Shown here: in pieces, positions 899-16,918 of the stretch
How positions within the stretch are numbered: the stretch's first letter is position 1
Layout of the letters: every line of letters begins with the position of its first letter
From: Flavobacterium alkalisoli
GTDB taxonomy: Bacteria; Bacteroidota; Bacteroidia; Flavobacteriales; Flavobacteriaceae
Reading direction: 5' to 3'
Length of the DNA stretch: 64,000 nucleotides
NCBI RefSeq assembly: GCF_008000935.1
Contig: NZ_CP042831.1
Location: forward strand, 186,001 to 250,000
Made by a program: the position numbers and the translations under genes
The notes under the pieces: model-generated
Seen by the model: the letters and a program-made list of their open reading frames with translations, nothing else
Told to the model about the DNA's origin: nothing
The model's database searches: none

Positions 899-2071
899 TC
901 AGGGTAACCTTTTTATAAGCTCAATACATGCTCTTGAGTTGTGGTAAGGACATTTCCAAAAACCTGCCTTGTCTTTTTCTATAAGCGAGTAATCTTTATT
1001 TACACCCCATACCCACTCACCATTTTCTTTATCCAATATATGCTGCTGAACAAATTTCCAGTTCTTTTGGGTTAAGTCAATATATTTTTTATCTCCGGTA
1101 AGCTGCCATGCATTTACAAAGCCAATCCATAATTCCGATTGTGGCCACCAGTGCTTTTCCTTAATCATTTGGTTTTTGTGTGCATCAAACTCATACCACA
1201 ATCCACCATCATTATCTAATCCTTCCAGCGTACCTTCGGTTAATATTATAGCGTGCTTTTTATAAACAGCAGTAAGGTTTTCATCATCAATTGCCTCGGC
1301 ACACCATTGCAATAGCCAGGCAGCTTCAATATCATGACCATAAGAAACAACATCTTCTTTTTCTACCCATTCTTCATTAAAGAACAACCTAAGATGTTTA
1401 CTATCTGTATCAATAAAATACTTATCAATAGTTATAAGTAATTCCCTGGTTGTACTTTTAAGATCTTCATCTTTCCAAACTCTGTAAAGGTTAGCATAAG
1501 CCTCTACTATATGAAGATGCGTATTCATGGTCTTCTTCTCGTTAGCATCCTTATCACTTAGGCGAAGATCATCAATAGGCTGCCAGTCTCTTGTAAAGGC
1601 TTCAAAATAACCTTTATGCACAGGGTCAAAACTATACTCTTCTATTTTTTTATAAAGAGCTACAGCCATTTCCAGAGCCTGAGTATTTCCAGATGCAGCA
1701 TAAAATTCAGACAGCCCATATATAGTAAATGCTAAGGCATAAATCTGGTTTTTGGTATCGTTTGGAGTACCATCGCTGTTAAGGCTCCAAAAAATACCAC
1801 CATGCTCCCTGTCATAAAAGTATTGGGCTATATAATCAAAAGCCCGTTCAGCAATTTTTAGATGCTGCTCATTTTTGGTAATTGGATAGGATGCAGAAAA
1901 TGCCCATAAAATACGGGCATTTAGTACTGATCCTTTTGGGTCGTTATAGTGTTTTATCTCGTTATGGTCAATCGTCCCGATGAAACCGCCATTCTTATTG
2001 TCTATTGTATTTTTAGTCCAATAGTCAAGAATTGAAAGCAGCTCATCACGCATTTGCGATTTTAAATCCAT
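899..2071 (-). CDS. Cellobiose/mannobiose 2-epimerase (AGE family)
   Basis: This 390-residue protein belongs to the N-acylglucosamine 2-epimerase (alpha6/alpha6 barrel) family. Enzymes of this type epimerise the reducing-end sugar of beta-1,4 disaccharides, here probably mannobiose to mannosyl-glucose. The three histidines expected for catalysis are visible: His187 in HLHIVEA, His246 in YGHDIEAAW and His377 in PYHNSR. WWPQSE near 308-313 is also typical of the family. No signal peptide is seen, so it is cytoplasmic. Its ATG overlaps the stop of the GH130 gene by one base (TAATG), which points to translational coupling. The pairing with GH130 supports a mannobiose rather than an N-acetylglucosamine substrate. 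Confidence 0.9.
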   Translation of the reverse strand: MDLKSQMRDELLSILDYWTKNTIDNKNGGFIGTIDHNEIKHYNDPKGSVLNARILWAFSASYPITKNEQHLKIAERAFDYIAQYFYDREHGGIFWSLNSDGTPNDTKNQIYALAFTIYGLSEFYAASGNTQALEMAVALYKKIEEYSFDPVHKGYFEAFTRDWQPIDDLRLSDKDANEKKTMNTHLHIVEAYANLYRVWKDEDLKSTTRELLITIDKYFIDTDSKHLRLFFNEEWVEKEDVVSYGHDIEAAWLLQWCAEAIDDENLTAVYKKHAIILTEGTLEGLDNDGGLWYEFDAHKNQMIKEKHWWPQSELWIGFVNAWQLTGDKKYIDLTQKNWKFVQQHILDKENGEWVWGVNKDYSLIEKDKAGFWKCPYHNSRACIELIKRLP

Positions 2072-3267
2072 TACAGAAACTTTTTATTATTCTCTACCTG
2101 TCTGATTATTGTATTTACCGATCCTGCAGATGTAAAAGTATCTTCCGGTGTATTCATTACATAATCTACCAGTTTATCTACAGTAGATACGGCAACATGC
2201 ATACGCGTATCAGAAGAAGCATAGTAAATATAAACAGTACCGTCCTCTTCTGCAATCCATCCGTTAGAAAACAGTACATTAGATACATCGCCAACTCTTT
2301 CCTCTCCCTCTGGCCCCATAAAATGACCTGCCGGCTGATGGGTTACCTTAGAAATATCATTAAGATCGGTCATGAATAGATATAATGTATAGCGAAGTCC
2401 GGCTGCCGTATTACGAACACCATGAGCCATATGCAGCCATCCTTTACTCGTTTTTATCGGTGCAGGACCAAGACCGTTTTTAAGCTCATAAATTGTATGA
2501 TATACCTTACCGCAAATAATCCTTTCATCCTGAACAACAGGATTCGTCATATCATCCACAAAACCAAGACCTATTCCGCCTCCGCTTCCCACGTCAATAA
2601 AACCATCCTGCGGACGTGTATATAAGGCATACTTTCCGTTTACAAACTCAGGGTGAAGTACAACATTACGTTGCTGTCCCGTATTTGAAACAAGGTCTGG
2701 TAATCTTTCCCAGTTTATAAGGTCTTTAGTCCTTACAATACCTGCATTGGCAACTGCAGCACTGGTATCTCCTTTTGGAGCATTAGGGTCTTTTCTTTCG
2801 GTACAAAAAATACCATATACCCATCCGTCTTCGTGCTCCACAAGCCTCATATCATACACATTTGTATCATGATTTTCTAACTGAGGAATAACGCATGGTT
2901 TTTCCCAAAACTTAAAGTTGTCCACCCCGTTAGGGCTCTCTGCTATAGCAAAAAACGACTTTCTGTCTACACCTTCAGTACGAACAGCAAGCACATACTT
3001 ACCTTTCCATTTCATAGCTCCGGCATTAAAGGCAGCATTCATGCCAATACGCTCCATACCGTAAGGATTGGTCGCCGCATTAAGGTCATACCTCCACTCT
3101 ATAGGAGTATGTGCTGCAGTAACCACCGGGTTTTTATATCTTGAATAAATACCATTGGTCTCTTCAACCGGAGTATTCTTTCTTTCAATCAGTTCCTGAT
3201 GCTTTTTAACCAGGGTTTCATAGTTAGGTATTCTAACCTGGTTGTTTGTAATCATCTCGCTAGCCAT
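2071..3267 (-). CDS. GH130 4-O-beta-D-mannosyl-D-glucose phosphorylase
   Basis: This 398-residue cytoplasmic protein is a glycoside hydrolase family 130 phosphorylase. The family splits beta-mannosyl-glucose with phosphate to give mannose-1-phosphate and glucose. Visible family features are RYDLNAATNPYGMERIGMN near 59-77, RTEG near 96-99, and the general-acid aspartate in NVYDMRL (Asp139). The length fits the group-1 mannosyl-glucose enzymes. It is coupled to the epimerase downstream (1-base overlap) and lies 36 bases after the symporter. The gene set matches the Bacteroides fragilis mannobiose pathway. A mannosyl-N-acetylglucosamine phosphorylase is the main alternative, but the epimerase makes it less likely. 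Confidence 0.9.
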   Translation of the reverse strand: MASEMITNNQVRIPNYETLVKKHQELIERKNTPVEETNGIYSRYKNPVVTAAHTPIEWRYDLNAATNPYGMERIGMNAAFNAGAMKWKGKYVLAVRTEGVDRKSFFAIAESPNGVDNFKFWEKPCVIPQLENHDTNVYDMRLVEHEDGWVYGIFCTERKDPNAPKGDTSAAVANAGIVRTKDLINWERLPDLVSNTGQQRNVVLHPEFVNGKYALYTRPQDGFIDVGSGGGIGLGFVDDMTNPVVQDERIICGKVYHTIYELKNGLGPAPIKTSKGWLHMAHGVRNTAAGLRYTLYLFMTDLNDISKVTHQPAGHFMGPEGEERVGDVSNVLFSNGWIAEEDGTVYIYYASSDTRMHVAVSTVDKLVDYVMNTPEDTFTSAGSVNTIIRQVENNKKFL

Positions 3268-3303
3268 ATATTAATTTATATTAAATTCAGGTTTTAGTTC
3301 TTA

Positions 3304-5229
3304 TTAGTAATCTGTAAGCCTGCTCCACCAGGTCTTTTTCATAATCAGTACTATAATTAGCATCAGTGCAAGTACAATGGCAAAACCTGTCCATTTGCTA
3401 AGTATAAAGTACATAGGAAGTAATGTTAATAGTATTTGGCCGGTAATGCCCATAGCCACATTAACCATGTTAATACCAAAGTTTTTGTTTTCTGTTATAG
3501 AAGGATCCTGCGCCTGTGCTGCTTCCCTAACCGGTTTCCAAAAACCCCATGGCCTTACCGTTTTGTAGAAGTTTATAAGTGTCTCCTGATTGGTAGGCGG
3601 TGCCGAGTATGAACCCAGTACACAAGCCACAAATTGTATTACAATAAACACAGGGAAATAATACAGCATTCGTGTACCGTCAAAATAATCGGTAATACCG
3701 CTTACTGATAAAGCCGGAGGTATGGCACTGGCAATAATACCCGCCAGCATTCCCCAAAAGAATCCGTTTGCATTAAAGCGCCACCAATACCACTTAAGCA
3801 CGTTAGCACATACAAACCCACCATAAAGACCCGCTGTTATTATATTAAAGATCATGTTCACATCTTTAATAAGAAGCCCTAAACCAACGCCTAGGATTAC
3901 CATTACAGTACCTGAAACATAACTCATACTGATTATCTGCTTTCTATCGGCATCCGGCTTTAGGAACTTAAGGTAGATATCATTTACAAGATAGGCCTGA
4001 CCCGCATTTAATGTCCCCGAGAAGTTACTCATAAATGCCCCAAGGAATCCTGCCAGTACAAGACCTACAAGACCTACAGGCAGGTATTTATTAATAACCG
4101 CAGGCATAATGCTTTCAAAGTTTACTCCGTCTGCACTGTGGCTTAACGCCAAATCCTTAAAGTACAGCACACCAAGTATACACAGTCCCATTGTCATAAA
4201 GTAGCGTATAGGAAGTAGTATTATGGAGATAAAACCACTCATTTTACTGGCTTCTTCCGGTGACTTTGTACTTAATATCTTTTGGCAGTCATAATTAGGT
4301 GCGGGACCGGCAAGGCTTTTAAGCACACCCGAAAAGAACATCATACCCACTACTGCCGAGAATAGCTTATAACCATCCTTTTCAAGTTTTACCTGTGCAT
4401 CGGTCAATATGTTTTGCCAGTCAAGTCCAAGTTCCCACCCAAACATAGGACTGTCCCATCCTACAGGCATTTTATCGGCTATTACTATACCCGAATCTGC
4501 CAAATGAATCATAGCTATGGTACCCACAAATAGGGAACAAACTATCATGATCATATACTTTATAAAATCAGCCAGCACTATACCGTGCATACCCCCTACA
4601 ATACTGTAGAATGTAGCAACAAGGCATATACTAACTCCGTAAAACTTAGCCGTAAGATCTTTAGCTTCATATAAGGCTGTTTCATAAGCCGGTGTTCCTA
4701 CCTGAAAAGCATCTATATGCTGATCAAGAAACGGAAAAACTTCCTTTACACTTTCATAAGGGATAAATATTTCAAGAAACTCCCCTACTCCTACAAAAGC
4801 ATAGGCCATATAGCCCACACAAAGCATAAGTGCAAAAACCACTACTACTGCATGGCTTTGCTTAACTCCTTTATCAGACAGCCCAAAACGGGTGCCCAAC
4901 CATTCTGCTCCGGTTGTAGCGTTACTTCTTCTAAGCCACTTACTTAAAAATACCATTAGAAAAACCTGATTGAACACAGGCCACATCCACGGTATCCAAA
5001 CACTTTTAAAACCGTAAAGAAATGCCATACTTACCAATAGCATGGTTCCGCTTATATCAAACATATCGCTGGCATCACTTAGCCCTAACATGTACCACGG
5101 AAGTTTTTTACCACCCATAAGGTAGCTGTCCTTGCTTTTCTTGGCGCGGTTTTTCATGACAATCCCTATTACGATCATCATTATAAAATAAAGTGCAATT
5201 ATCGTTAAATCTATGGCTGTTAATCTCAT
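3304..5229 (-). CDS. Sodium:solute symporter (SSS/SLC5 family), probable mannooligosaccharide importer
   Basis: This 641-residue inner-membrane protein has many hydrophobic segments, starting with DLTIIALYFIMMIVIGIVM at about 7-25. SSS-type motifs such as SYLMGGKKLPWYMLG and TGAEWLGTRFG are present. It follows the GH26 lipoprotein gene after 30 bases and precedes the GH130 gene by 36, so all four probably share one mRNA. In the B. fragilis mannan pathway a symporter at this place is thought to bring mannobiose across the inner membrane. The substrate here is inferred from context; uptake of glucose, mannose or galactose is also possible. Confidence 0.87.
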   Translation of the reverse strand: MRLTAIDLTIIALYFIMMIVIGIVMKNRAKKSKDSYLMGGKKLPWYMLGLSDASDMFDISGTMLLVSMAFLYGFKSVWIPWMWPVFNQVFLMVFLSKWLRRSNATTGAEWLGTRFGLSDKGVKQSHAVVVVFALMLCVGYMAYAFVGVGEFLEIFIPYESVKEVFPFLDQHIDAFQVGTPAYETALYEAKDLTAKFYGVSICLVATFYSIVGGMHGIVLADFIKYMIMIVCSLFVGTIAMIHLADSGIVIADKMPVGWDSPMFGWELGLDWQNILTDAQVKLEKDGYKLFSAVVGMMFFSGVLKSLAGPAPNYDCQKILSTKSPEEASKMSGFISIILLPIRYFMTMGLCILGVLYFKDLALSHSADGVNFESIMPAVINKYLPVGLVGLVLAGFLGAFMSNFSGTLNAGQAYLVNDIYLKFLKPDADRKQIISMSYVSGTVMVILGVGLGLLIKDVNMIFNIITAGLYGGFVCANVLKWYWWRFNANGFFWGMLAGIIASAIPPALSVSGITDYFDGTRMLYYFPVFIVIQFVACVLGSYSAPPTNQETLINFYKTVRPWGFWKPVREAAQAQDPSITENKNFGINMVNVAMGITGQILLTLLPMYFILSKWTGFAIVLALMLIIVLIMKKTWWSRLTDY

Positions 5230-5259
5230 ATTATAGCAGCTGCAAAAGCAGTATATGTC

Positions 5260-6438
5260 TTATTGGTATAATTTTTCTTTTGTTACGTCGCTTTGAAAAA
5301 GCGTATTCCTATCCTTATAGTATTGAATAAAATCCTCTTTATAAGAATGCCCGCTGTAGGGCGCATAATAATGCATTCTTGGCGGATTCATATGCTCATT
5401 CCAGCCATGGTTTCTCCACACCAGGACATAGGATATCTTATTTTTACCTATTGCATTTGTAAGGGTTTCTGTCCACCATTTTTCATACGGGATAGCCTCA
5501 TAACCGGTCTCGGCCAGTGCGGTAAGCTTCCCGTGTTCATCGGCTGCTTTTTGAATAACAGTTAAAAGATGGTTTACGTTTTTACTGTATTCCTCAAGCT
5601 TAGTACCTTCGCCCATTTGATAAGCATCAAAACTCATCATATCCACATACTCATCGCCGGGATAGTATTCCATAAAATCCTCCTGAGTATTTACATTTGA
5701 GTCTGAAGTATTATATACATATATAAGGTTGTGTACCCCTTTCTCTTCAAAATAGTTTACCGTAAACTTCCATAGTTCCTTAAATTGCTGTGGTGTGGTA
5801 GTATTTTTACACCACCAAAACCAGTTACCTGTAAATTCATGATAAGGTCTGTATAGTATAGGTATCAGCTTACCATCACTTCCTTTCAAGGAAAGGAAAA
5901 ATGAAGCCGCGTTATCAAGCCATCCTTTAAAAACCTCATGCTTATCACCTCCCGGAAGTATAGAAGCAACCGTTCCCTGTGGGTTATCCCAAGCATCGCC
6001 ACCGCTAAGCGGGTTATTCATATGCCAGCTTATGGTATTAACACCACCTCTGTCATAAACCTGTTTAATAAACTGCCTCATTTTTTCAAAAGGCACACCG
6101 TCAAGGTTTTTTTCTTCATTATTCTCCAGTCGGCCTATATCCCAACCATATACAGCAGGATAATCTCCGGTAACATCTTTAACATCACTGCGTCCTTCTT
6201 CATACTTCCATTCCACCCCATATGCAAGGTCATCCTGATGACCGAACATATAACCGTTTTCCCTTAGATTAAAAAGATTGTTATATAGTGCAGCGGTTTC
6301 TTTTGTAGCCTGTTTGTCTGCTAAAAGATGTGTATCTTTTAGATTTGCATCACTATTTTCCGCCTCCTGCTTTTTATCCGATTTCCCACAGGAAACCACA
6401 GCAAAAGCTAAGAGCAGTATTGGTAATTTGTTTTTCAT
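5260..6438 (-). CDS. GH26 endo-beta-1,4-mannanase, lipoprotein
   Basis: This 392-residue protein is the first gene of the leftward mannan arm. It starts with a lipoprotein signal ending in VVSC (Cys17). The GH26 catalytic residues can be read directly: acid/base Glu201 in YRPYHEFTGNWFWW and nucleophile Glu310 in ALAETGYE. Substrate-side motifs ISWHMNNP (136-143) and SILPGGDKHE (159-168) are also present. It should hydrolyse mannan or galactoglucomannan backbone at the cell surface or in the periplasm; many family members release mannobiose, which suits the epimerase and phosphorylase downstream. A likely promoter with a TATCTTTG -7 box lies about 110 bases upstream. It resembles the truncated GH26 at the left edge but is clearly a distinct gene. 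Confidence 0.93.
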   Translation of the reverse strand: MKNKLPILLLAFAVVSCGKSDKKQEAENSDANLKDTHLLADKQATKETAALYNNLFNLRENGYMFGHQDDLAYGVEWKYEEGRSDVKDVTGDYPAVYGWDIGRLENNEEKNLDGVPFEKMRQFIKQVYDRGGVNTISWHMNNPLSGGDAWDNPQGTVASILPGGDKHEVFKGWLDNAASFFLSLKGSDGKLIPILYRPYHEFTGNWFWWCKNTTTPQQFKELWKFTVNYFEEKGVHNLIYVYNTSDSNVNTQEDFMEYYPGDEYVDMMSFDAYQMGEGTKLEEYSKNVNHLLTVIQKAADEHGKLTALAETGYEAIPYEKWWTETLTNAIGKNKISYVLVWRNHGWNEHMNPPRMHYYAPYSGHSYKEDFIQYYKDRNTLFQSDVTKEKLYQ

Positions 6439-6547
6439 TTAATTTTGTAGTTGGTTTGCGAAGAACCTGTTAAGCTTGATAAATTCTTAAATTCTTCACC
6501 TTATTATTTCACAAAGTGCAATTTTAAATACACTTTTTTGATAATGC

Positions 6548-6555
6548 CAAAGATA
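6548..6555 (-). promoter_or_regulatory. -7 element of the leftward mannan operon
   Basis: Leftward TATCTTTG fits the Bacteroidetes -7 consensus TAnnTTTG. It lies about 110 bases upstream of the GH26 start at 6438. No TTG is found at the usual -33 place; instead the shared 18-bp element ends exactly 19 bases upstream, as expected for an activator-dependent promoter. Confidence 0.55.
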
Positions 6556-6574
6556 ATTTTAGTCTTAAATTTAA

Positions 6575-6592
6575 GTTAATATTATTTTATCA
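6575..6592 (-). promoter_or_regulatory. Shared 18-bp element, copy 1 (leftward arm)
   Basis: Read leftward the sequence is TGATAAAATAATATTAAC. It is identical to 7642-7659 upstream of susC and has the same orientation relative to its gene. Its proximal end is 19 bases from the -7 box, as at susC. It also lies 11 bases before a weak TATAATTG (6604-6611) that could serve the AraC gene. It is probably a binding site for the AraC-type regulator encoded next to it. Confidence 0.6.
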
Positions 6593-6628
6593 ATATTATA
6601 TCATATAATTGCAAATAAAATTACAGAT

Positions 6629-7504
6629 ATGAACAATCAAAAATTTCACAGAGAAATAACACCGCTTTCTAAAGGGGACAGTTTCCTGGTTTTTGACAGG
6701 ATAAAAGACAATTTTGACTTCCCCATTCACTACCACCCTGAGTTCGAGATTAACTTTATTCTAAATGCGAAAGGTGTAAAAAGAATTGTAGGTGACCATA
6801 TTGAGGAGATAGATGATGTAGAGTTGGTATTGGTGGGGCCTAACCTTTATCATGGTTGGGAGATGCATAACTGTAAAAGCAAAAACATACACGAAATAAC
6901 CATACAGTTTCACAATGACCTTTTTAGTGAATCGCTACTTTCTAAGAGAATAATGATGCCTATAAAAGATATGTTTAACAGGGCTAATCACGGTATACTC
7001 TTCTCAAAAAAAACGGGAGAAGAACTAGCTAACAGGCTGGTACACATATCTAAGCTTGACGGAATGGATTACTTTCTGGAGATAATTTCCGTACTGCACG
7101 ACATGGCCAATTCCAGAAACCAGAAACTGCTTTCTACCTATACCGTTAACTACGACACCTTTGAAGATGACGACAAAATGAAACTGGTATATGACTATAT
7201 ACAGAAGAACTTTTCGGGTAAGATAACTCTTGATGATGTGTCGGATATTGCAAGCATGAGTCCTGTATCATTTAACCGTTTTATCAAGAAAAGAACGGGA
7301 AAAACCTTTGTTAACTACTTAAATGATATTCGTGTAGGTTATGCCGCAAGATGGCTGGTAGAAAAAGACCTCAGTGTATCTGAAATTGCATTTAAATCAG
7401 GCTTTAATAATATTGCCAACTTTAATCGCATTTTCAAAAGCGTAAAAAACACAACACCAAGCCAGTACAGAGATGAATTTTACGGAATGAAACGATTTTT
7501 ATAA
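6629..7504 (+). CDS. AraC-family transcriptional regulator of the mannan locus
   Basis: This 291-residue protein has an N-terminal cupin-like sensing part (about 25-105, with HYHPEFEINF and GPNLYHGWEMH) and a C-terminal AraC/XylS double helix-turn-helix of about 100 residues. In the latter, ITLDDVSDIASMSPVSFNRF forms the first unit and LSVSEIAFKSGFNNIANFNR the second. Such regulators usually bind a sugar in the cupin part and activate nearby promoters. It sits between the two divergent mannan arms, and both flanking promoters carry the same 18-bp sequence, so it is the natural candidate regulator. Its own promoter is weak in sequence (TATAATTG at 6604-6611), which may mean self-regulation. 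Confidence 0.9.
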   Translation: MNNQKFHREITPLSKGDSFLVFDRIKDNFDFPIHYHPEFEINFILNAKGVKRIVGDHIEEIDDVELVLVGPNLYHGWEMHNCKSKNIHEITIQFHNDLFSESLLSKRIMMPIKDMFNRANHGILFSKKTGEELANRLVHISKLDGMDYFLEIISVLHDMANSRNQKLLSTYTVNYDTFEDDDKMKLVYDYIQKNFSGKITLDDVSDIASMSPVSFNRFIKKRTGKTFVNYLNDIRVGYAARWLVEKDLSVSEIAFKSGFNNIANFNRIFKSVKNTTPSQYRDEFYGMKRFL

Positions 7505-7630
7505 AACAAAGCCTATATAAAACAAACACTCAAGAAGAGAATAAATAATTGATTTAAAACCATTTAATTATTCTTAAAAACTACTTTCTATTTTTACGGT
7601 ATACTATTTACGCAAACGTTAGAGAAAATA

Positions 7631-7647
7631 TTATCATTAAATGATAA
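7631..7647. promoter_or_regulatory. Inverted repeat upstream of susC
   Basis: TTATCATT-A-AATGATAA is a perfect 8-bp inverted repeat around one base. It overlaps the left end of the shared 18-bp element and lies 31 bases before the susC -7 box. It may be part of a regulator site; the leftward promoter has no matching palindrome. Confidence 0.35.
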
Positions 7648-7659
7648 AATAATATTAAC
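7642..7659 (+). promoter_or_regulatory. Shared 18-bp element, copy 2 (susC arm)
   Basis: TGATAAAATAATATTAAC is identical to the leftward copy at 6575-6592. It ends 19 bases before the susC -7 box, the position normally taken by the -33 box. A chance 18-base match at the same spacing at two divergent promoters is unlikely even in AT-rich DNA. Confidence 0.6.
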
Positions 7660-7678
7660 AAACACTTAACATCTCCCA

Positions 7679-7686
7679 TAAATTTG
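7679..7686 (+). promoter_or_regulatory. -7 element of the susC operon
   Basis: TAAATTTG fits TAnnTTTG. It lies about 93 bases before the susC start. The rest of the 275-base gap between the regulator and susC is AT-rich and shows no further gene. Confidence 0.55.
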
Positions 7687-7779
7687 TTTTTATCAATAAA
7701 TAAACTCTAAAATTACCGAAAGTAAAAATAAAGTGTTTATTTATTTAGAAATTAGTAACTAACCTAACACAAATCAATT

Positions 7780-10700
7780 ATGGGGATTAAATTACTCTAT
7801 TTTACTAAATGGCTCCAGCGAGGCAATGCATTACTGTATTTGCTTTTGTTGTGCTCTTTTAGTGCCTTACAGGCGCAAACAACTGTTACCGGTACGGTAA
7901 TAGACAACACAGGCATGGGTATACCTGGTGCTAACGTTACTATAAAAAGTACAGGAACCGGTGTATCTACAAATGAAGACGGACAATACAGCATTAATGC
8001 TCCAAGTGATGCTGTGCTGGTTTTCAGTTTTATCGGGTATGGAAATCAGGAAATTGAAGTAAATGGAAGAGAGGTAGTAAATGTTACCCTTGAAGAAAAT
8101 GCACAAACTCTTGACGAAATAGTATTAATTGGTTATGGAAGTCAAAAAAGACAGGAAGTTAACGGTTCTGTTTCAAAAATAAAGGCTACTGATGTTGCCG
8201 ACTTAACACAGGTAAGTATAGACCAAATGATGCAGGGTAAGGCTTCGGGGGTTGTTGTTACAAACAACTCAGGACAGCCGGGTAGTTCAACCTCCATACG
8301 CATTAGGGGTAATACATCACTTTCAGGAACAAACGAACCTTTATATATTATAGACGGTGTACCAGTTTCGGGAGATGCTACAGGAAACGCTATGAGCGGA
8401 AGACCTATAGCAGGAGGCGATTTTACATCACAGGGTAATAACACAGTGAGTCCGCTTGCTATGCTAAACCCTAATGACATCGAGTCGATGGACATCCTTA
8501 AAGATGCATCTGCAACAGCCATTTATGGCGCAAGAGGTGCCAATGGTGTTGTAATAATCACTACTAAATCAGGTAAAAAAGGTACAGGAAAACTAACATA
8601 CGACAGTTATGTTTCGTTCCAGGAACAGGCTAAATTACTTGATGTAATGGATCTTCAGCAATATGCACGCCAGCAAAATGAACTTGCCGCTTTGTACGGA
8701 CAGGAATTAAGACCTGAATTTGCACATCCTGAGTTATTAGGATCTGGTACTAACTGGCAGGAAGAAATTTACCAGACAGGTATACTTAAAAACCATCAGT
8801 TAGCTTTTTCAGGTGGTAAAGATGACACCAATTACTATATATCAGGAGGTTATACAGACCAACTTGGTACAGTAATCGGATCTCAGTTTAAGCGTTATAC
8901 ATTTAAATCTAATGTTGACACTAAAGTAAAAAAATGGTTAAAGGTAGGTGCTTATGTAACAGGTTCAATTACCAACGAAGACATTACCTTAAATGGTCAG
9001 CAAAACGGTATTGTAAGTACTTCACTACTTCAGGCTCCTGATTTAGCAGTAAGAAATCTTGATGGTTCTTATGCAGGTGCTCCGGCAAACAACCAGGGTG
9101 TTGCTTACATAAACCCTGTGGCCCTTGCTCTAACAAAATCTAACGAACTGGTTCGTAAAAATTTCTTAGGAAATGTTTATGCTGAAATATCTTTATTTAA
9201 AGGCCTTAGTTACAGGTTTGAACTTGGTGCCAATACAGAGTTTAGCGAAAACGACGAGTTTCTTCCAACATATCAGTGGGGTTCTTTTGGTAATGAGTTT
9301 GCAGACTTAAATAAAAGACGTCAAAACTGGTACTCATGGAACGTAAAAAACCTTCTTACTTACAGAAACACATTTGCAGGCAAACATGATGTAACAGTGC
9401 TTGCCGGACAGGAGGCTAATGAGTCTACTTGGGATGGTATGTATGCTTATGCTACAGGTTTCCTGAGTAATGATGTACACACTATAAGTGTTGCCGATGC
9501 TTCTCAAAGCACTGTAAACGACTATAAAGGCAGCCAGGCTCTTAATTCATATTTTGGTAGGGCTATTTATACTTTTGACGATCGTTATAGCATTCAGGGT
9601 TCAATAAGGGCTGATGGTTCTTCTAAATTTGATCCTGTAACTAAAAAACAATGGGGATACTTCCCTGCAGTTTCAGGTTCATGGACACTTTCAAACGAAA
9701 GCTTCATGGAAGGAACTAAAAAATATATAGACAATATTAGATTTAGAGCCGGTTATGGTGAAGTGGGTAACCAACAGATAGGTAATAACAGGTATGGTGC
9801 TAACCTTAGCTTTATTGGTACAGGATTAGGAACAGGTACCCTGTTTACTAACATGGCCAACCCTAATGTAACATGGGAAACTTCTAAACAAACCAACTTA
9901 GGTGTAGATTTTACGCTATTTAGCAACAGACTTAGTGCTACAGTAGAATTCTACAACAAAAGATCGGAAGACTTCCTTACTACGCTCCCTCTACCTTATT
10001 ACCTTACAGGCGGCCCTAACTGGGAAGGTGGTATAGACCCTCCTTATGTAAATCTTGGTGAGATACAAAATAAAGGTATAGACCTTACCCTTTCATACAA
10101 AACAGATCCTTCAAAAGATTTTTCATGGAACTCTACCCTTATCTTCTCAAGAAACAGAAATAAGGTAGTATCCCTAAACGACGGACTGGTACTAATGCAG
10201 GAAGTAAACACTAATGATTATACTACTGTTACCGCTACAAATACTGTTGTAGGACAGCCAATGGGACAGTTTTACGGATATCAGACATTGGGAATCATCA
10301 GAGACCAGGATCAACTTGACAATGCGCCGTTAATTGGCATTTACAACGGAGACCCGGTACAATCTCAATTAGGAGATGTATTATATGCCGACTTAAATGA
10401 TGACGGAGTAATAAACGATGATGACAGAACTTTTATAGGTAATCCTTACCCTGATTTTACTTATGGTTTTACAAACAACTTCAGGTATAAAGGTATAGAC
10501 TTTTCAATTTTCCTACAGGGTTCTCAGGGCAACGACATTCTTAATCTTACAGGAAGAACCGGCACCCTAAACACCAACCTGTATCAAAACCAGCTAGCTG
10601 AAGCTGCTGATTACTGGACGGTAGACAATCCTAATGCAAGCCTGCCCAGGCCGGTAAGTAACCTTGGTCACAGTAACCTTTTAATTTCTGACAGGTATGT

Positions 10701-10953
10701 TGAAGATGGTTCTTACTTAAGAATCCAAAACATTACGTTAGGTTATACTTTACCATCTGATATTACATCAAAAGTAAGTATTACAAAGCTGAGAATTTAT
10801 GGAGGTGTTCAAAACCTGCACACCTTTACAAAGTATAAGGGATATGATCCTGAAGTAGGTTCTTTTAACCAGAATGCGCTTTTAACAGGAGTAGATAACG
10901 GACGCTACCCTTCGCCACGTTCATTCACTATGGGATTAAATGTTGAATTCTAA
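7780..10953 (+). CDS. SusC/RagA-type TonB-dependent outer-membrane transporter
   Basis: This 1057-residue protein has a signal peptide ending near SALQAQ (about 28-33), a carboxypeptidase-regulatory-like domain (about 34-105), and a TonB-box-like segment LDEIVLIGYGSQKR near 111. A plug domain follows, with the SusC signatures IRIRGNTSL and PLYIIDGVP and the segment DILKDASATAIYGARGANGV. The rest is the long beta-barrel. It should import mannan oligosaccharides through the outer membrane with energy from TonB, capped by the SusD lipoprotein encoded 10 bases downstream. It is the first gene of the rightward arm and has a -7 box and the shared element upstream. The substrate is inferred from neighbours, not from its own sequence. 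Confidence 0.95.
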   Translation: MGIKLLYFTKWLQRGNALLYLLLLCSFSALQAQTTVTGTVIDNTGMGIPGANVTIKSTGTGVSTNEDGQYSINAPSDAVLVFSFIGYGNQEIEVNGREVVNVTLEENAQTLDEIVLIGYGSQKRQEVNGSVSKIKATDVADLTQVSIDQMMQGKASGVVVTNNSGQPGSSTSIRIRGNTSLSGTNEPLYIIDGVPVSGDATGNAMSGRPIAGGDFTSQGNNTVSPLAMLNPNDIESMDILKDASATAIYGARGANGVVIITTKSGKKGTGKLTYDSYVSFQEQAKLLDVMDLQQYARQQNELAALYGQELRPEFAHPELLGSGTNWQEEIYQTGILKNHQLAFSGGKDDTNYYISGGYTDQLGTVIGSQFKRYTFKSNVDTKVKKWLKVGAYVTGSITNEDITLNGQQNGIVSTSLLQAPDLAVRNLDGSYAGAPANNQGVAYINPVALALTKSNELVRKNFLGNVYAEISLFKGLSYRFELGANTEFSENDEFLPTYQWGSFGNEFADLNKRRQNWYSWNVKNLLTYRNTFAGKHDVTVLAGQEANESTWDGMYAYATGFLSNDVHTISVADASQSTVNDYKGSQALNSYFGRAIYTFDDRYSIQGSIRADGSSKFDPVTKKQWGYFPAVSGSWTLSNESFMEGTKKYIDNIRFRAGYGEVGNQQIGNNRYGANLSFIGTGLGTGTLFTNMANPNVTWETSKQTNLGVDFTLFSNRLSATVEFYNKRSEDFLTTLPLPYYLTGGPNWEGGIDPPYVNLGEIQNKGIDLTLSYKTDPSKDFSWNSTLIFSRNRNKVVSLNDGLVLMQEVNTNDYTTVTATNTVVGQPMGQFYGYQTLGIIRDQDQLDNAPLIGIYNGDPVQSQLGDVLYADLNDDGVINDDDRTFIGNPYPDFTYGFTNNFRYKGIDFSIFLQGSQGNDILNLTGRTGTLNTNLYQNQLAEAADYWTVDNPNASLPRPVSNLGHSNLLISDRYVEDGSYLRIQNITLGYTLPSDITSKVSITKLRIYGGVQNLHTFTKYKGYDPEVGSFNQNALLTGVDNGRYPSPRSFTMGLNVEF

Positions 10954-10963
10954 AAATTAGCTC

Positions 10964-12526
10964 ATGAAAAAAAATATAAAATCAATAGCAGTCGCAGTTT
11001 TCGCTTTAGGAGTGATGTCGCTTAACTCATGCAGTGATGACTTCCTTATACGCGAACCGCAGGACAGCATTACACTCGAAAATTACTTTAGTTCTAATGA
11101 CCAGGTAAGAAACAGTACTAATGCAATGTACAGCAAAACATGGTTTAACTTTCACAACAAGGCTTTCTTTGCAATTGGTGAAGTTGGATCGGGTAACAGC
11201 TACACAGGATCAAGCGACGTTAACAGTTTAAGAACACTTACAATTTCCGGTACCGACGTAGAGATGGTTAATGCGTGGAAAGGTCTATGGGCTACTATAG
11301 CACAGGCCAATATGCTTATTAGCCTTCTGCCGGAAAGAGTAGGTCCGGAAGTAGATCCGGAAGTAGTGGATGTTGCAATTGGCGAAGCGCACTTTATGAG
11401 AGCTACGGCTTACTTTTACCTTGTTAGGCTATGGGGACCGGTGCCAATTGTAGAAAACAACCTGGATAACGTTGAAAACCCTCAAATACCTACAAACCCT
11501 GTAGAAGATATTTATCAGTTTATTGAATTAGAATACAATGCTGCAATAAATATGCTTCCTGAAAAAATAAGAAGCTCTAATTATGCCGATAACGGAAGGG
11601 TATCTAAAGGTTCTGCTAAAGCAATGCTTGCTAAGGCGCATTTATATCAGGGAGAATATAGCGAGGCAAAACAACTTGCTGAAGAAGTAATAAACAGCGG
11701 TGAGTTTAAACTTTATGGAGGTGAGGAACTTCCTTCCTACTCTTTTGGAGACCTGTTCCTTACAGCTAACAATAATAATGAAGAATCTATTTTTGCACTA
11801 CAGTGGAAAGTTACCGGAAACTATGGTACTGCCAGTAACTGCAACACCCAGTTTGGTTATTCCCCTTATATAAATCAGGCTACTTACGGAGGTGTATTTG
11901 CCCCTTCTATGGACCTGTTAGCTTCGTTTGAAGATGGGGATTTAAGACGTAAGGAAACAGTTATGTTACCTGGGGACTTCTACCCTAACATTACGACTGC
12001 CGATGGTCCCGGATTAACTGTTCCTGATGATATTGATGCACAGGGAACCGGTTCGGGTATCAAAAAATACGTTGTAGGTAAAGGCGGCGGTGCTGCAGGG
12101 CCGTTTGACAACTGGGGTATGATGGAAAACAACACTTACATTATGCGTTATGCTGAAGTATTACTTATACATGCTGAGGCAATTTTAGGAGGTGCTGAAA
12201 GTACTTCAGATGCTGCTGCTCTTGCTTCTTATAACAAAGTAAGAAACAGGGCCGGTTTACCATCTGTAACTTCATTCACTTTTGATGAGCTTTTCCATGA
12301 GAGAAGAATCGAATTGGCTTTTGAGGGCGATTACTGGTATGATCTGGGAAGATTACCATTATCTAAAGCTGCAGATATAATAAGCAATCAGGACAGAGGG
12401 TTTGTAGACAATCCTAACTTCGTGCCAATCCCATCGGGAGACTTTTTTATACTGCCTTACCCAACTATCGATTTAGACAAGAATCCTAAATTAGGTGAGC
12501 CTCCGGTACCTTATAACTTTGACTAA
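10964..12526 (+). CDS. SusD/RagB-type surface glycan-binding lipoprotein
   Basis: This 520-residue lipoprotein has its lipobox at LNSC (Cys23) followed by SDDF. The N-terminal TPR-like part (AKAMLAKAHLYQGEYSEAKQLA near 215-240) and the C-terminal RagB/SusD part, with FDELFHERRIELAFEGDYWYDL (about 440-460), are typical. It lies 10 bases after susC and would form the lid of the SusC channel and bind mannooligosaccharides at the surface. Confidence 0.95.
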   Translation: MKKNIKSIAVAVFALGVMSLNSCSDDFLIREPQDSITLENYFSSNDQVRNSTNAMYSKTWFNFHNKAFFAIGEVGSGNSYTGSSDVNSLRTLTISGTDVEMVNAWKGLWATIAQANMLISLLPERVGPEVDPEVVDVAIGEAHFMRATAYFYLVRLWGPVPIVENNLDNVENPQIPTNPVEDIYQFIELEYNAAINMLPEKIRSSNYADNGRVSKGSAKAMLAKAHLYQGEYSEAKQLAEEVINSGEFKLYGGEELPSYSFGDLFLTANNNNEESIFALQWKVTGNYGTASNCNTQFGYSPYINQATYGGVFAPSMDLLASFEDGDLRRKETVMLPGDFYPNITTADGPGLTVPDDIDAQGTGSGIKKYVVGKGGGAAGPFDNWGMMENNTYIMRYAEVLLIHAEAILGGAESTSDAAALASYNKVRNRAGLPSVTSFTFDELFHERRIELAFEGDYWYDLGRLPLSKAADIISNQDRGFVDNPNFVPIPSGDFFILPYPTIDLDKNPKLGEPPVPYNFD

Positions 12527-12543
12527 TTTTAAAAATTCAGTAT

Positions 12544-13578
12544 ATGAAAACTTTTAAATTAAAAAAACTAATGGGTTTACTTACCGTTTTTACGGTAGTA
12601 TTCCTGGGGATTGTATCCTGTAGTGATGATGATTCGTCTGCAAGTACATCTGCCCCTGAAATTAACAGTATAGCCCTTGCTGCCGACGAAAATCTGGAGC
12701 CACTTGAAGTAGGTTATGCTAACAACATGTATGCAATACAGGGTGTAGGATTCAGTACATTACAAAAAGTATATTTTAATGACACTGATACTTATTTTAA
12801 CCCAACCTTAGTTACTGAAAACACCATTTTTGTTACGATAGACAAAGACACTCCTTATGCAGATGCATCAAATGAGTTAAAAATCGTTACAAAATATGGC
12901 ACAGCAGTATACCCGTTTATTGTGGCACCACCGGCACCGGAACTGAGAAGTTTCCAGCCTGTTAATGCAGCAGATGGCGAAGTGGTAACCCTTTTAGGAA
13001 ACTATTTCCTTGACCCTGTAGTAACTGTAGGCGGTGTAGAAGCAGAAATAGTTTCTACATCTTTAACGGAAGTAGCTATTAAACTGCCTGCCGGTTCTCA
13101 ACACAAATATATTGAGGTAGAAACCATATCGGGTTCAGATGCATGGGGAACAGCTGTAGGCACTGCTATTTACGACGATGCATTTTATGACCCGTGGACT
13201 ATAGAAGAATGGAACAACCACGAATATATAACTGATCCTGCAAAAGCATATCAGGGTGTGACTTTCATCAAAAAAGAAATTTCAGGATGGGATAATATTC
13301 AGGGTAATTGGGCATGGGATGATCAGATATCTCAATACACAGGAATACGATTTTCAGTTCGTTCTGACGATCCGGGAAAACTGGTGCTTATTTTTAACGG
13401 TGCAAACTGGGGTGATGCAAACTTTGCATTCACTACCACTTCTGACTGGAAAGAATACCGCTATACATGGGAAGAACTGGGCGGAATGCCTGAAGCCTTA
13501 CAGAATATTTCGTTCCAGGAATTTACTGGAGCAACCCATAACTATTACTTTGACAATATAGGATTCACCGTAGATTAA
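12544..13578 (+). CDS. SusE-position IPT/TIG surface lipoprotein, probable glycan-binding protein
   Basis: This 344-residue protein has a lipobox at GIVSC (Cys26) and the SDDD stretch common in exported Bacteroidetes lipoproteins. Two IPT/TIG-like Ig domains are suggested (about 38-125 and 129-205, the second with FQPVNAADGEVVTLLGNYF). A C-terminal domain rich in Trp and aromatic residues (SGWDNIQGNWAWDD near 247-260) looks like a carbohydrate-binding jelly roll. It is the third gene of the susCD transcript, ends just before a strong terminator, and most likely binds mannan at the cell surface. No catalytic residues were recognised. Confidence 0.85.
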   Translation: MKTFKLKKLMGLLTVFTVVFLGIVSCSDDDSSASTSAPEINSIALAADENLEPLEVGYANNMYAIQGVGFSTLQKVYFNDTDTYFNPTLVTENTIFVTIDKDTPYADASNELKIVTKYGTAVYPFIVAPPAPELRSFQPVNAADGEVVTLLGNYFLDPVVTVGGVEAEIVSTSLTEVAIKLPAGSQHKYIEVETISGSDAWGTAVGTAIYDDAFYDPWTIEEWNNHEYITDPAKAYQGVTFIKKEISGWDNIQGNWAWDDQISQYTGIRFSVRSDDPGKLVLIFNGANWGDANFAFTTTSDWKEYRYTWEELGGMPEALQNISFQEFTGATHNYYFDNIGFTVD

Positions 13579-13615
13579 TCCCCTACACTTATACATTGTG
13601 ATTTTGTTTTTTGTG

Positions 13616-13648
13616 AAACATTCCCTGATTCAGAATCGGGGAATGTTT
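13616..13648 (+). terminator. Terminator after the susC-susD-susE-like genes
   Basis: A 15-bp stem (13616-13630 with 13634-13648, one G-T pair) with a 3-base loop is followed by a T-rich run. It separates the binding and transport genes from the GH27-GH5 pair. Part of the transcription could still read through. Confidence 0.85.
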
Positions 13649-13697
13649 TAATTATTTTTAAGTTTCCTCCATAATACCTGCACAATAAAAAAACATA

Positions 13698-14942
13698 ATG
13701 AAAAAAATCTTTTATAGCCTTTTAAGCTTAATATTATCCCTATCGGCATTTTCACAGGGAAATAACCATAAACTGGAACCTTCAAAATTTGAAGGACTGG
13801 CCATGACCCCTCCTATGGGATGGAATTCATGGAACACTTTTGCAACCGATATAAATGAAGACCTGGTAAAACAAACTGCCGATATTATAGTAGCATCGGG
13901 CATGAAAGATGCCGGATATACTTACATAGTACTGGATGATGGCTGGATGACGCGTGAAAGAGATGAAAACGGCAACTTAGTTCCCGATCCTAAAAAATTC
14001 CCTGGCGGAATGAAAACCTTAATAGATTATGTACACTCTAAAGGCTTGAAATTTGGATTATACAATTGTGCAGGCACTAAAACCTGTGCCGGTTATCCGG
14101 GAACAAGAGGATATGAATATCAGGATGCCCGCTTTTATGCTGCGCTGGGTATCGATTTCTTAAAATACGACTGGTGTAATACAGAAGGCATTACCGCTAA
14201 AGAAGCTTATACAACAATGAGCAATGCCCTTAAAACTGCAGGCAGGCCAATCCTTTTCAGCCTTTGTGAATGGGGAGACAACCAACCTTGGGAATGGGCA
14301 GAACCATTAGGAAATATGTGGAGAATATCAGGAGATATATACCCTTGTTTTGACTGTGAGTTTAAGCACCCTGAAAACTGGTCGTCATGGGGATTCATGA
14401 AAATTATTGACATGAGAAAAGGTATCAGAAAATATTCGGGACCTGACCACTGGAATGATTTTGACATGATGGAAGTAGGCAATGAAATGAATGATACTGA
14501 AGATAAATCTCATTTCAGCATGTGGTGTATGGTGGCTTCTCCGCTTATTGCAGGCAACGACTTTAGAAAAATGAGTAAAGAAACGCTTAACATTCTTACC
14601 AACAAAGGTATGATTGCCATCAATCAGGACAAACTGGGAATACAGGGGTTTAGATATAATGACAATAACGGTCTTGAAACATGGGTAAAGCCGCTTGAAA
14701 ATGGCGATTGGGCTGTAGCTTTTCTTAACAGAAGTGAAGAAGAAAAAACAATTGACTTTAACTGGAAAGATCATAGCATAAAAGATGAAGAATTCAACAA
14801 GCAGACTTCATTCAACACCTCTACTTATGACATTCAGGATGTATGGAATAACAAAAAAGCAGGAAATACTAAAAAGGCTTACAAAAGCAAAATAGCTCCG
14901 CATGATATTGTTGTACTAAGACTTACTAAAAAATTGAAATGA
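13698..14942 (+). CDS. GH27 alpha-galactosidase, secreted
   Basis: This 414-residue protein has a signal peptide of about 20 residues (ending AFSQ) without a lipobox, so it is probably periplasmic or secreted. GH27 signatures are clear: TPPMGWNSWNTF (37-48), LDDGWM (79-84), nucleophile Asp158 in LKYDWCN and acid/base Asp213 in RISGDI. It should remove alpha-1,6-galactose branches from galactomannan or galactoglucomannan, opening the backbone to GH26 and GH5. Its stop overlaps the start of the GH5 gene by four bases (ATGA), so the two are coupled. No clear TAnnTTTG was found in the short gap after the terminator. Confidence 0.93.
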   Translation: MKKIFYSLLSLILSLSAFSQGNNHKLEPSKFEGLAMTPPMGWNSWNTFATDINEDLVKQTADIIVASGMKDAGYTYIVLDDGWMTRERDENGNLVPDPKKFPGGMKTLIDYVHSKGLKFGLYNCAGTKTCAGYPGTRGYEYQDARFYAALGIDFLKYDWCNTEGITAKEAYTTMSNALKTAGRPILFSLCEWGDNQPWEWAEPLGNMWRISGDIYPCFDCEFKHPENWSSWGFMKIIDMRKGIRKYSGPDHWNDFDMMEVGNEMNDTEDKSHFSMWCMVASPLIAGNDFRKMSKETLNILTNKGMIAINQDKLGIQGFRYNDNNGLETWVKPLENGDWAVAFLNRSEEEKTIDFNWKDHSIKDEEFNKQTSFNTSTYDIQDVWNNKKAGNTKKAYKSKIAPHDIVVLRLTKKLK

Positions 14943-15895
14943 CACAACGCTTAAAACATATTATAGCTACACTCCTGCTCTGCTCTGCCTGTTTTGCACA
15001 GGTAAGCAAACACGGGCAGCTAAGTGTTGAAGGAACAAAACTGGTTGACCACAACAGCGAACATATTATGCTTAGAGGCATGAGCTTTGGGTGGCATAGC
15101 TTTTGGCCCCGCTTCTATAATAAGGAAGCGGTACAATGGCTTAAAGACGACTGGAATGTAAACATTGTTAGAGCTGCAATGGGTATAGAGGTTGGCAACA
15201 ACACTTACCTGCAAAATCCTCAGGATTCTGAACAAAAAATAATGGCTGTTGTAGATGGAGCCATAGCTTCTGATATTTATGTTATTATAGACTGGCACAG
15301 TCACAATATAAACCTTAAAGAAGCGAAGCTGTTTTTTGACAAGATGTCTAAAAAATATGGAGACAGCCCCAATGTTATTTATGAGGTATTTAATGAACCT
15401 GATGAAGAAACATGGCCGGAAGTAAAAGCATACAGCGAAGAAATAATTAAGGTTATACGAAAAAATGACCCTGATAATATCATACTGGTAGGCTGTCCGC
15501 ATTGGGATCAGGATATTCACTTACCCGCTCAGGATCCTATTACGGGATTTAAAAACATTATGTATACGGTACATTTTTATGCCGCTACCCATAAACAGGA
15601 GCTGCGTGACCGTACCGACAAGGCAATTGAAGCCGGATTACCTGTATTTGTTTCAGAATGTGCAGGCATGGAAGCAACCGGAGACGGCCCTATTGATTAT
15701 GAAGAATGGCAACGATGGATTGACTGGATGGAAAGCCGCGGACTTAGCTGGATTACATGGTCGCTATCTGATAAAGATGAAACCTGTAGTGTACTAAAAA
15801 AGACTGCCTCTTCTACAGGAAACTGGAAGAAAGATGACCTTAAGGAGAGTGGTGTAAAAACAAGAGACTATTTAAAATCATTGAATAAATCATAG
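14939..15895 (+). CDS. GH5 endo-beta-1,4-glucanase/mannanase (subfamily 2-like)
   Basis: This 318-residue secreted enzyme has a signal peptide ending near CFAQ (about 21). GH5 residues are visible: the acid/base Glu153 in YEVFNEP, the nucleophile Glu240 in FVSECAG, IDWHSH (117-122) and TVHFYAATHKQ (210-220). The overall pattern (GTKLVDHNSEHIMLRGMSF near 32-50) recalls subfamily 2 endoglucanases more than the usual GH5_7 mannanases. It may therefore cut glucose-containing stretches of glucomannan. Assignment to a subfamily is by eye only. It is translationally coupled to the GH27 gene and followed by a good terminator. Confidence 0.88.
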   Translation: MTQRLKHIIATLLLCSACFAQVSKHGQLSVEGTKLVDHNSEHIMLRGMSFGWHSFWPRFYNKEAVQWLKDDWNVNIVRAAMGIEVGNNTYLQNPQDSEQKIMAVVDGAIASDIYVIIDWHSHNINLKEAKLFFDKMSKKYGDSPNVIYEVFNEPDEETWPEVKAYSEEIIKVIRKNDPDNIILVGCPHWDQDIHLPAQDPITGFKNIMYTVHFYAATHKQELRDRTDKAIEAGLPVFVSECAGMEATGDGPIDYEEWQRWIDWMESRGLSWITWSLSDKDETCSVLKKTASSTGNWKKDDLKESGVKTRDYLKSLNKS

Positions 15896-15923
15896 ATTTA
15901 GTTTGAGTTAGTTTTGTAATTTT

Positions 15924-15950
15924 AAAAACCCTGTAAAAAGCAGGGTTTTT
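15924..15950 (+). terminator. Terminator at the end of the mannan locus
   Basis: A perfect 10-bp stem (15924-15933 with 15941-15950) ends in a T-run after the GH5 gene. A TATCTTCG (15956-15963), close to a -7 box, follows directly and may start transcription of the next pair of genes. Confidence 0.85.
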
Positions 15951-15980
15951 TATTTTATCTTCGCACAAAACCAATAACTG

Positions 15981-16448
15981 ATGAAAAAATTAATTTATTT
16001 ATGTCTTGCCTTATGCATGACTACAGCGATTAGTTTCGCACAAAAACTGACCGACAAAAACTTACAGGGAACCTGGAACGTTGTTGCAGTAGATCTTCTT
16101 GAAACAGAAGGTATATATCTTGACCTTATAAAAGAAGATGTTGTTTTCTCTGAAGAAGTGAAAAGCCAAGCTCCTGCAGAAACATTAGAGCAGGCCAAAG
16201 CAAGTATGGCCCCAACCATAACCATGCTTAAAGAAATGAAAATGATAATAACCGGAAATAATGTACAGCAATTTATACCGGGAGAAGAAGTAAACGGTGT
16301 TTATACTCTGGTTAACGAAAATAATAAGCAAATGCTTAAGATTACATATTCTGACGACACAGAGGATTTTGTTGAAGTTTACATGAAAGAAGACAAGCTT
16401 TATATTGACCTTGAACAGGATGGTCTTTTTATTTATAAAAAAGGATAA
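15981..16448 (+). CDS. Lipocalin-like exported protein, copy 1
   Basis: This 155-residue protein has a signal peptide ending near ISFAQ (about 21). The mature part begins with LTDKNLQGTWNVVAVDLLET, the G-x-W start typical of lipocalin-like small-molecule-binding barrels. No catalytic motif was recognised and the ligand is unknown. The next gene, 5 bases downstream, encodes a diverged paralogue of nearly the same length. The pair is separated from the mannan locus by a terminator, so a role in mannan use is not supported. Confidence 0.7.
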   Translation: MKKLIYLCLALCMTTAISFAQKLTDKNLQGTWNVVAVDLLETEGIYLDLIKEDVVFSEEVKSQAPAETLEQAKASMAPTITMLKEMKMIITGNNVQQFIPGEEVNGVYTLVNENNKQMLKITYSDDTEDFVEVYMKEDKLYIDLEQDGLFIYKKG

Positions 16449-16453
16449 TTAGG

Positions 16454-16918
16454 ATGAGAACAACAAAGTTCTTAATCCTATTCGTTCTATTGTGTTTCAA
16501 ATTATCAAATGCACAGGAATCAACTCAGCAAAGTCTTCAGGGAAAATGGACATTAATAGCTTTAGACGCTATGCAAAGTGAGGGGTTTTATCTTGATCTC
16601 GCCAATAATTCCTATGAAATTTCTGATGAGTATAAAAAAATTATAACTCCTGAAAATGAAAGTAATATTAAGGCCACAATAATTCAATTCACCGAAAGAT
16701 TTAAGGATAACTTTGTCTTATTCGAACAAAATAATATCCAAAGAGTTATAGCCGGAGACGAAAATAAAGGCACATTTATTATTAAAAATAATAATGACAA
16801 ATCGTTTCTAAACATTAATTACAATAATAATATTAAAGACAGCTTAGAGTTTTTCATTAAAGACAAAAGATTACACATAATTGTTGATAATGAAGCCGAC
16901 TTTATCTTTACAAAGTAA
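16454..16918 (+). CDS. Lipocalin-like exported protein, copy 2
   Basis: This 154-residue protein has a signal peptide ending near SNAQ (about 21). It shares the same layout as the preceding gene: SLQGKWTLIALDAMQSEGFYLDL aligns with the GTWNVVAVD region of copy 1, and both end in a short hydrophobic FIF/FIY strand. It is richer in Asn and Lys and in AT-rich codons than copy 1, so it is probably diverging faster. Function unknown. It is followed by a very strong hairpin. Confidence 0.68.
   Translation: MRTTKFLILFVLLCFKLSNAQESTQQSLQGKWTLIALDAMQSEGFYLDLANNSYEISDEYKKIITPENESNIKATIIQFTERFKDNFVLFEQNNIQRVIAGDENKGTFIIKNNNDKSFLNINYNNNIKDSLEFFIKDKRLHIIVDNEADFIFTK

Follow-up and report, generated by a model that had tools for sequence, protein, structure and literature searches.

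The window analysed in our study, a 64 000 nt stretch of the Flavobacterium alkalisoli genome (contig NZ_CP042831.1), contains a mannan locus in which a leftward and a rightward operon flank the gene of an AraC-type regulator. The genes were assigned by domain scan unless otherwise stated.

899..2071, minus strand: AGE-type epimerase (best NCBIfam model cellobiose 2-epimerase, scoring below the cut-off of that model)
2071..3267, minus strand: GH130 mannooligosaccharide phosphorylase family
3304..5229, minus strand: sodium:solute symporter
5260..6438, minus strand: GH26 (mannanase family), first gene of the leftward operon
6629..7504, plus strand: AraC-type one-component regulator, 291 aa (HTH_18 and HTH_AraC)
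7780..10953, plus strand: SusC/RagA outer-membrane transporter, first gene of the rightward operon
10964..12526, plus strand: SusD-type lipoprotein
12544..13578, plus strand: TIG-domain protein
13698..14942, plus strand: GH27-type alpha-galactosidase (Melibiase_2)
14939..15895, plus strand: GH5 glycosidase

Two small ORFs of 155 and 154 aa, without a Pfam match, lie immediately 3' of the GH5 gene (15981-16918, plus strand). The original prediction concerned the pair of promoters flanking the regulator gene, and the features there are as follows.

6548..6555, minus strand: -7 box of the GH26 operon, TATCTTTG
6575..6592, minus strand: promoter-proximal half-site of the GH26 operon, TGATAAAATAATATTAAC (the 18-mer), from the sequence and kept in relatives
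6596..6613, minus strand: putative distal half-site of the GH26 operon in a 21-bp register, TGCAATTATATGATATAA, a conserved block in alignments of relatives
6604..6611, plus strand: candidate -7 box of the regulator gene, TATAATTG, within the distal half-site that belongs to the GH26 operon
7621..7638, plus strand: putative distal half-site of the susC operon in a 21-bp register, AGAGAAAATATTATCATT, a conserved block
7642..7659, plus strand: promoter-proximal half-site of the susC operon, TGATAAAATAATATTAAC (the 18-mer), from the sequence and kept in relatives
7679..7686, plus strand: -7 box of the susC operon, TAAATTTG

The sequence bore out the prediction that the same 18-mer occurs at 6575-6592 (minus strand) and 7642-7659 (plus strand), that exactly 19 nt separate it from a TAnnTTTG box at both promoters, and that an AraC-type regulator is encoded between them. 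Sigma-A promoters of Bacteroidota are characterized by a TAnnTTTG -7 box and, at a set distance from it, a TTG -33 box. Both promoters had the TAnnTTTG -7 box and neither had the TTG, none being found 17-23 nt upstream of either -7 box, which agrees with the earlier claim that a TTG at -33 is missing. For F. psychrophilum, the available part of one paper places the sigma-A box TAnnTTTG at -12 to -5 (PMC9723704). The end of the left copy of the 18-mer is 36 bp ahead of the start codon of the regulator gene. Scanning the window with up to 3 mismatches returned 3 matches, the third of which (25022-25039) had 3 mismatches, compared to a mean of 0.43 matches in shuffled windows, and none of 100 shuffles reached 3. 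The observation that the 18-mer does not recur in the mannan locus could be extended to the whole 3.99-Mb genome, which contains only the two copies below 3 mismatches. A further 26 matches were found at 3 mismatches and, as the total of 28 compares with 25 for the reversed-pattern control, the genome matches beyond the two copies are background.

Conservation was assessed in the best 80 of 484 regulator relatives (78-99 % identical), a syntenic set of Flavobacterium together with a small number of records whose titles read Flavobacteriaceae, [Flexibacter] or Bacteroidetes bacterium; many of the 80 are close relatives of one another. The closest named relative among these 80 was F. beibuense RSKm HC5, with a regulator 99 % identical. 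The gene order, with GH26 and SusC diverging from the regulator gene between them (GH26 <- regulator -> SusC), was seen in all 80 loci. Compared to TGATAWWATANTATTAAY, the GH26-side element was exact in 65 loci and differed by one mismatch in 8, two in 5 and three in 2, with TAnnTTTG at 19 nt in 80/80. The SusC-side element was exact in 32/80, with one mismatch in 10 and two in 38, and in many Flavobacterium the 3' end of this proximal half had drifted (TATCGAT). The SusC-side gap was 19 nt in 77/80 loci and 20 nt in 1, with no -7 box found in 2, although this count is slightly biased towards a box, because a -7 box at 15-23 nt served as the tie-breaker in the SusC-side search, whereas the GH26-side search did without it. 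TAnnTTTG was not found on the SusC side of two MAG loci (L026 and L027) or of genome G131 (L159). A TTG 17-23 nt upstream of the -7 box was absent from 76/80 GH26-side promoters and from 70 of the 78 SusC-side promoters with a -7 box. Absence of the element from relatives with the same locus would have counted against the original prediction; instead, Flavobacterium and other genera of the family keep it, with unchanged spacing, at both promoters.

The 18-mer had been taken to be the whole element; it appears instead to be the promoter-proximal half, and a second conserved block, which starts 21 bp upstream, had been missed. Within the window, the distal and proximal halves are identical at 9/18 positions on the left and 12/18 on the right, and the distal halves are inconspicuous in the window alone because 30 of 862 intergenic 18-bp windows (both copies included) match at 11 or more positions. 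It is comparison between species, not the window alone, that reveals the putative distal half-site. Promoters at least 80 % identical were removed, which left 32 GH26-side and 22 SusC-side promoters for the information and offset tests. In these reduced sets, the distal 18 bp carried a mean of 1.46 bits per column on the GH26 side and 1.19 on the SusC side, compared to 1.40 and 1.35 for the 18-mer and 0.22 and 0.43 for the 34 bp beyond the distal block.

A weight matrix of the 18-mer placed the best secondary match of the SusC side at offset -21 (rank 1 of 89 offsets), whichever side's matrix was used. For the GH26 side, a tandem has less support, because offset -21 ranks only 7 and 4 of 89 there and -11 comes first. 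For 35 sites of other genera, offset -21 was first (z 3.0), followed closely by +3 (2.8), with -11 in seventh place. Both half-sites keep a G at position 2. An imperfect direct repeat in a 21-bp register is the best reading of the element, least clearly so on the GH26 side of Flavobacterium, and conservation of the distal block on that side may be partly due to the regulator's own promoter. On the GH26 side, Flavobacterium keeps the motif TGATATA within 6593-6613 (minus strand), at a distance of 11 bp upstream of the proximal half. A repeat of 11 bp was considered as the main register and rejected, as it outscores 21 bp on the GH26 side yet is only seventh in other genera; we regard it as a trait of the genus or of the promoter that serves the regulator gene.

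The distribution of the element was then compared to that of the regulator. Across 150 genomes of the genus, a regulator match (E 1e-60 or better) was found in 41, and a strict composite pattern of the element in 35, all of them within the 41 regulator-positive genomes and none among the 109 others; the reversed control returned 0 (nominal Fisher p 2e-28, with relatedness ignored). Among the 39 genomes with a regulator at least 72 % identical, the 4 missed by the strict pattern carry variants, which were seen directly (G008, G054, G135 and G131). Two further genomes, G044 and G110, have homologues of only 49 % and 41 % identity and yielded no convincing site (best 6 mismatches in L147, none in L160). 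Sites in the genus lie within approximately 210 bp of the regulator gene wherever both share a contig; in G003 they are on two short contigs. In two Flavobacterium genomes (L143 and L144), a second regulator copy of 72 % identity lies directly 3' of another GH26 gene, and the 16-17 kb examined there contained no such site. In the family survey of 299 genomes, 52 had the regulator and 15 had the strict pattern, all within those 52, with 0 among the 247 regulator-less genomes and 0 for the reversed control (nominal p 6e-13). The strict pattern was thus found only where the regulator was matched, in both the 150 genus and the 299 family genomes, which favours the earlier reading of the element as a candidate activator site.

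Zero control matches, together with the constant gap and conservation over several genera, led us to reject a chance repeat of an A+T-rich word as extremely improbable, even though the region is A+T-rich and the distal halves do not stand out in the window. The surveys also bear on the reading that the 18-mer is a core promoter feature, either an alternative -33 element or an UP-like A+T tract read by RNA polymerase, which its A+T richness and the rigid 19-nt gap to the -7 box would fit. Such a feature should recur in the genome, where just the two copies are found below 3 mismatches; the strict composite is absent from every regulator-less genome searched, and the conservation is specific to the sequence and spans the second block. 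We regard a core promoter feature as very unlikely.

A looser scan, which allowed up to 4 mismatches and gaps of 12-27 nt, was applied to locus pieces rather than whole genomes from 51 of the 52 regulator-positive family genomes (G000 was left out; G060 belongs to the same genus). Sites were found in 32/51 genomes and their frequency can be set against the identity of the regulator: 18/22 at 64-80 %, 11/17 at 60-63 %, 3/7 at 55-59 % and 0/5 at 40-54 %. The gap was 19 nt in 45 of 48 sites and 20 nt in the other 3. At this threshold, 4 of the 22 genomes in the highest identity class (G365, G370, G251 and G186) had no site, and neither had 6 of the 17 genomes at 60-63 %; raising the limit to 5 mismatches left 2 of the 22 without one. 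With up to 5 mismatches allowed, 57 of 67 sites had a gap of 19 or 20, and the threshold admits background, because the other 10 sites scatter over other gaps. When 57 loci were replaced by order-1 Markov sequence, 0.6 matches per replicate were obtained, compared to 35 distinct real sites. The Markov test and the offset test in other genera used these 57 of the 68 loci L091-L158, counting identical sites of overlapping loci once; the second or distant regulator copies (L138, L143-L148 and L158) and the Flavobacterium loci (L149-L151) were left out.

Co-occurrence alone does not name the binder, because the regulator, the sites and the mannan genes travel together. GH130 was found in 31 of the 299 family genomes and all 31 also have a regulator match, so that an attempt to separate the regulator from the mannan genes by means of GH130 failed. 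Sites were also seen at other positions and in other loci. In G257, the regulator is on contig 1, and contig 2 carries the GH26/SusC locus with both sites; in G417, divergent SusC and GH26 genes enclose the sites at a distance of 15 kb from the regulator; and in G249 and G408, a SusC promoter with a site is approximately 8 and 4.5 kb from the regulator, respectively. G262 has one site beside the regulator and another far off, ahead of a carbohydrate-binding-module protein followed by GH10, and it is possible that these two genes form a further part of the regulon. In this region (L140, 6000-9163), the protein behind the site has 602 aa, with CBM60, CBM10 and CBM5/12 and no recognized catalytic domain. 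In six genomes (G168, G221, G396, G286, G343 and G327), the regulator adjoins a SusC of only 31-36 % identity and no GH26 or GH130 match was found in the locus piece examined, yet a variant with 3 or 4 mismatches and a gap of 19 precedes this SusC. Other loci of this type, for example in G269, G175 and G370, were without a site in the pieces examined. The sites in trans and those in loci without GH26 or GH130 therefore suggest that the site is tied more closely to the regulator than to the mannan genes or to a position, although they identify the regulator as the binder only indirectly. Extra copies, with the sequence TGATAAAATAGTATTATC, were noted near second GH26 and AGE-type genes (L134 at 3470 and 6155, L135 at 13373), without TAnnTTTG at the usual distance.

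A factor encoded elsewhere, such as a global regulator or a hybrid two-component system (HTCS) that includes an AraC-type domain, might bind the element while the local protein acts otherwise. Precedent comes from the marine flavobacterium Muricauda sp. MAR_2010_75, in whose beta-mannan locus an AraC-type factor is accompanied by an HTCS (PMC9860051), and HTCS motifs of Bacteroides likewise have a predicted 21-bp register (PMC3878776). However, 6629-7504 holds the only regulator domain among the 12 ORFs of 899-16918 scanned (two of the 12 being without a Pfam match), the strict site is missing from every regulator-less genome of both surveys, and the regulator still has sites next to it where the locus contains different genes. 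We therefore consider another factor unlikely and the local AraC-type protein the preferred binder.

The protein itself matches the AraC/XylS family in its C-terminal double helix-turn-helix, a domain of approximately 100 residues in this family, with PF12833 at 205-282 and PF00165 both above their cut-offs, and its profile matches solved AraC-type domains. The family pattern also includes a ligand-binding, cupin-like domain at the N-terminus, for which no Pfam match was obtained. A structure prediction from 28 sequences had a mean pLDDT of 59.6 and showed N-terminal strands, with block means of 55 or less for residues 1-100. A hybrid two-component architecture was not seen, the DNA-binding domain being the only one recognized in the 291 aa. 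Ahead of the regulator gene, the box TATAATTG is one base off TAnnTTTG and 17 nt from the start codon, and TAnn(A/T)TTG is kept at this position in 78/80 relatives. As the distal half of the left operator covers this -7-like box, autoregulation is suggested, and the regulator probably controls its own gene. In the available text on Muricauda, the proteins of the locus, regulators included but the HTCS excepted, rose on galactomannan (PMC9860051), which argues against simple self-repression.

Taken together, we consider it highly probable that the 18-mer is the proximal half of a tandem operator of approximately 39 bp, at which the local AraC-type activator switches on both operons. In the mechanism that we infer, the regulator (6629-7504) would bind this operator at both flanking promoters, with two protomers on one face of the DNA, separated by two helical turns; given a -7 box at -12 to -5, they would occupy about -70 to -53 and -49 to -32. 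On binding a mannan-derived ligand, it would touch RNA polymerase from the position of the -33 box, and this contact would allow a sigma-A promoter with only a TAnnTTTG box to fire. One regulator would thereby co-induce the catabolic operon (GH26, symporter, GH130 and epimerase) and the uptake operon (SusC/D, GH27 and GH5) and, where the left operator covers the -7-like box of its own gene, would control itself.

The site adjoins the core promoter and the direction of control is not readable from sequence, which leaves room for a repressor that sits on the element and is released by mannan oligosaccharides. Such a repressor is distinctly unlikely, as the site is upstream of the -7 box and the -33 TTG is absent from most relatives at both promoters, features that fit the need for an activator. 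The AraC-type CgrA of the marine flavobacterium Zobellia galactanivorans likewise acts as a positive regulator of a polysaccharide regulon, although its substrate is carrageenan and no CgrA operator is described in the available part of that paper (PMC5698469). Activation by the local regulator therefore remains our favoured reading.

The element is real, widely conserved and, with strong comparative support, probably an AraC-type tandem operator, which invites comparison with known systems. At the E. coli araBAD promoter, AraC uses I1-I2, two direct half-sites approximately 21 bp apart of which the proximal adjoins the -35 position, and AraC is an activator of a sugar operon that is encoded beside that operon and autoregulates. 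Direct half-sites approximately 21 bp apart were likewise found here, in other genera and on the SusC side, though not on the GH26 side by the offset test; the proximal half-site adjoins the -33 position, 19 nt from TAnnTTTG, and a putative sugar-operon activator, which probably regulates itself, is encoded alongside. Unlike I1-I2, the same operator is found at two promoters that flank the regulator gene, and these belong to the -33/-7 type of Bacteroidota.

For AraC-type HTCS of Bacteroides, the accessible text predicts direct repeats with a mean distance of 21 bp and monomers on one face, two turns apart (PMC3878776). By its register, the operator described here can be likened to those of HTCS_Man in B. 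thetaiotaomicron, where an AraC-type domain and 21-bp repeats are likewise placed before polysaccharide-utilization operons; those loci serve alpha-mannan, according to the same text (PMC3878776). In contrast to the HTCS, the regulator of this study has no recognized kinase, receiver or periplasmic sensor domain. The Muricauda locus is similar in gene content (GH26, GH27, GH5, GH130, symporter, SusC/D and AraC-type factor), its AraC-type factor is expressed and the locus responds to mannans but to neither mannose nor pectin; unlike the locus in the window it also has the HTCS gene, and no operator is described for it in the available part of the paper (PMC9860051). The literature matches listed, which lie largely outside subscription journals, contained in their available text no description of the motif or of a mannan AraC-type operator in Flavobacteriaceae, and one-component AraC-type operators seem little described in the polysaccharide loci of this family.

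The half-site sequence, its register and its distance from the -7 box provide a handle for finding regulon members in other genomes, and may be of use in constructing promoters inducible by mannan and in studying how the -33 contact of Bacteroidota is replaced by an activator. A broader view, which we hold tentatively and at somewhat less than even odds, is of a family-wide regulon under one one-component regulator and an operator at a fixed 19 nt from the -7 box. The regulon would comprise the two divergent operons and the promoter of the regulator gene, with the -7 box of the latter lying within the distal half of the left operator, and operator occupancy would jointly set the levels of enzymes, importer and regulator. 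As the regulator moved into further polysaccharide loci, the operator would have moved with it, and it would also have reached hemicellulase genes that are unlinked.

Elsewhere in the window, a single open frame of 7264 aa (18241-40035, minus strand) adjoins a PorP/SprF-type gene (17233-18168, minus strand), and the two probably represent a giant surface protein and its type IX secretion partner.
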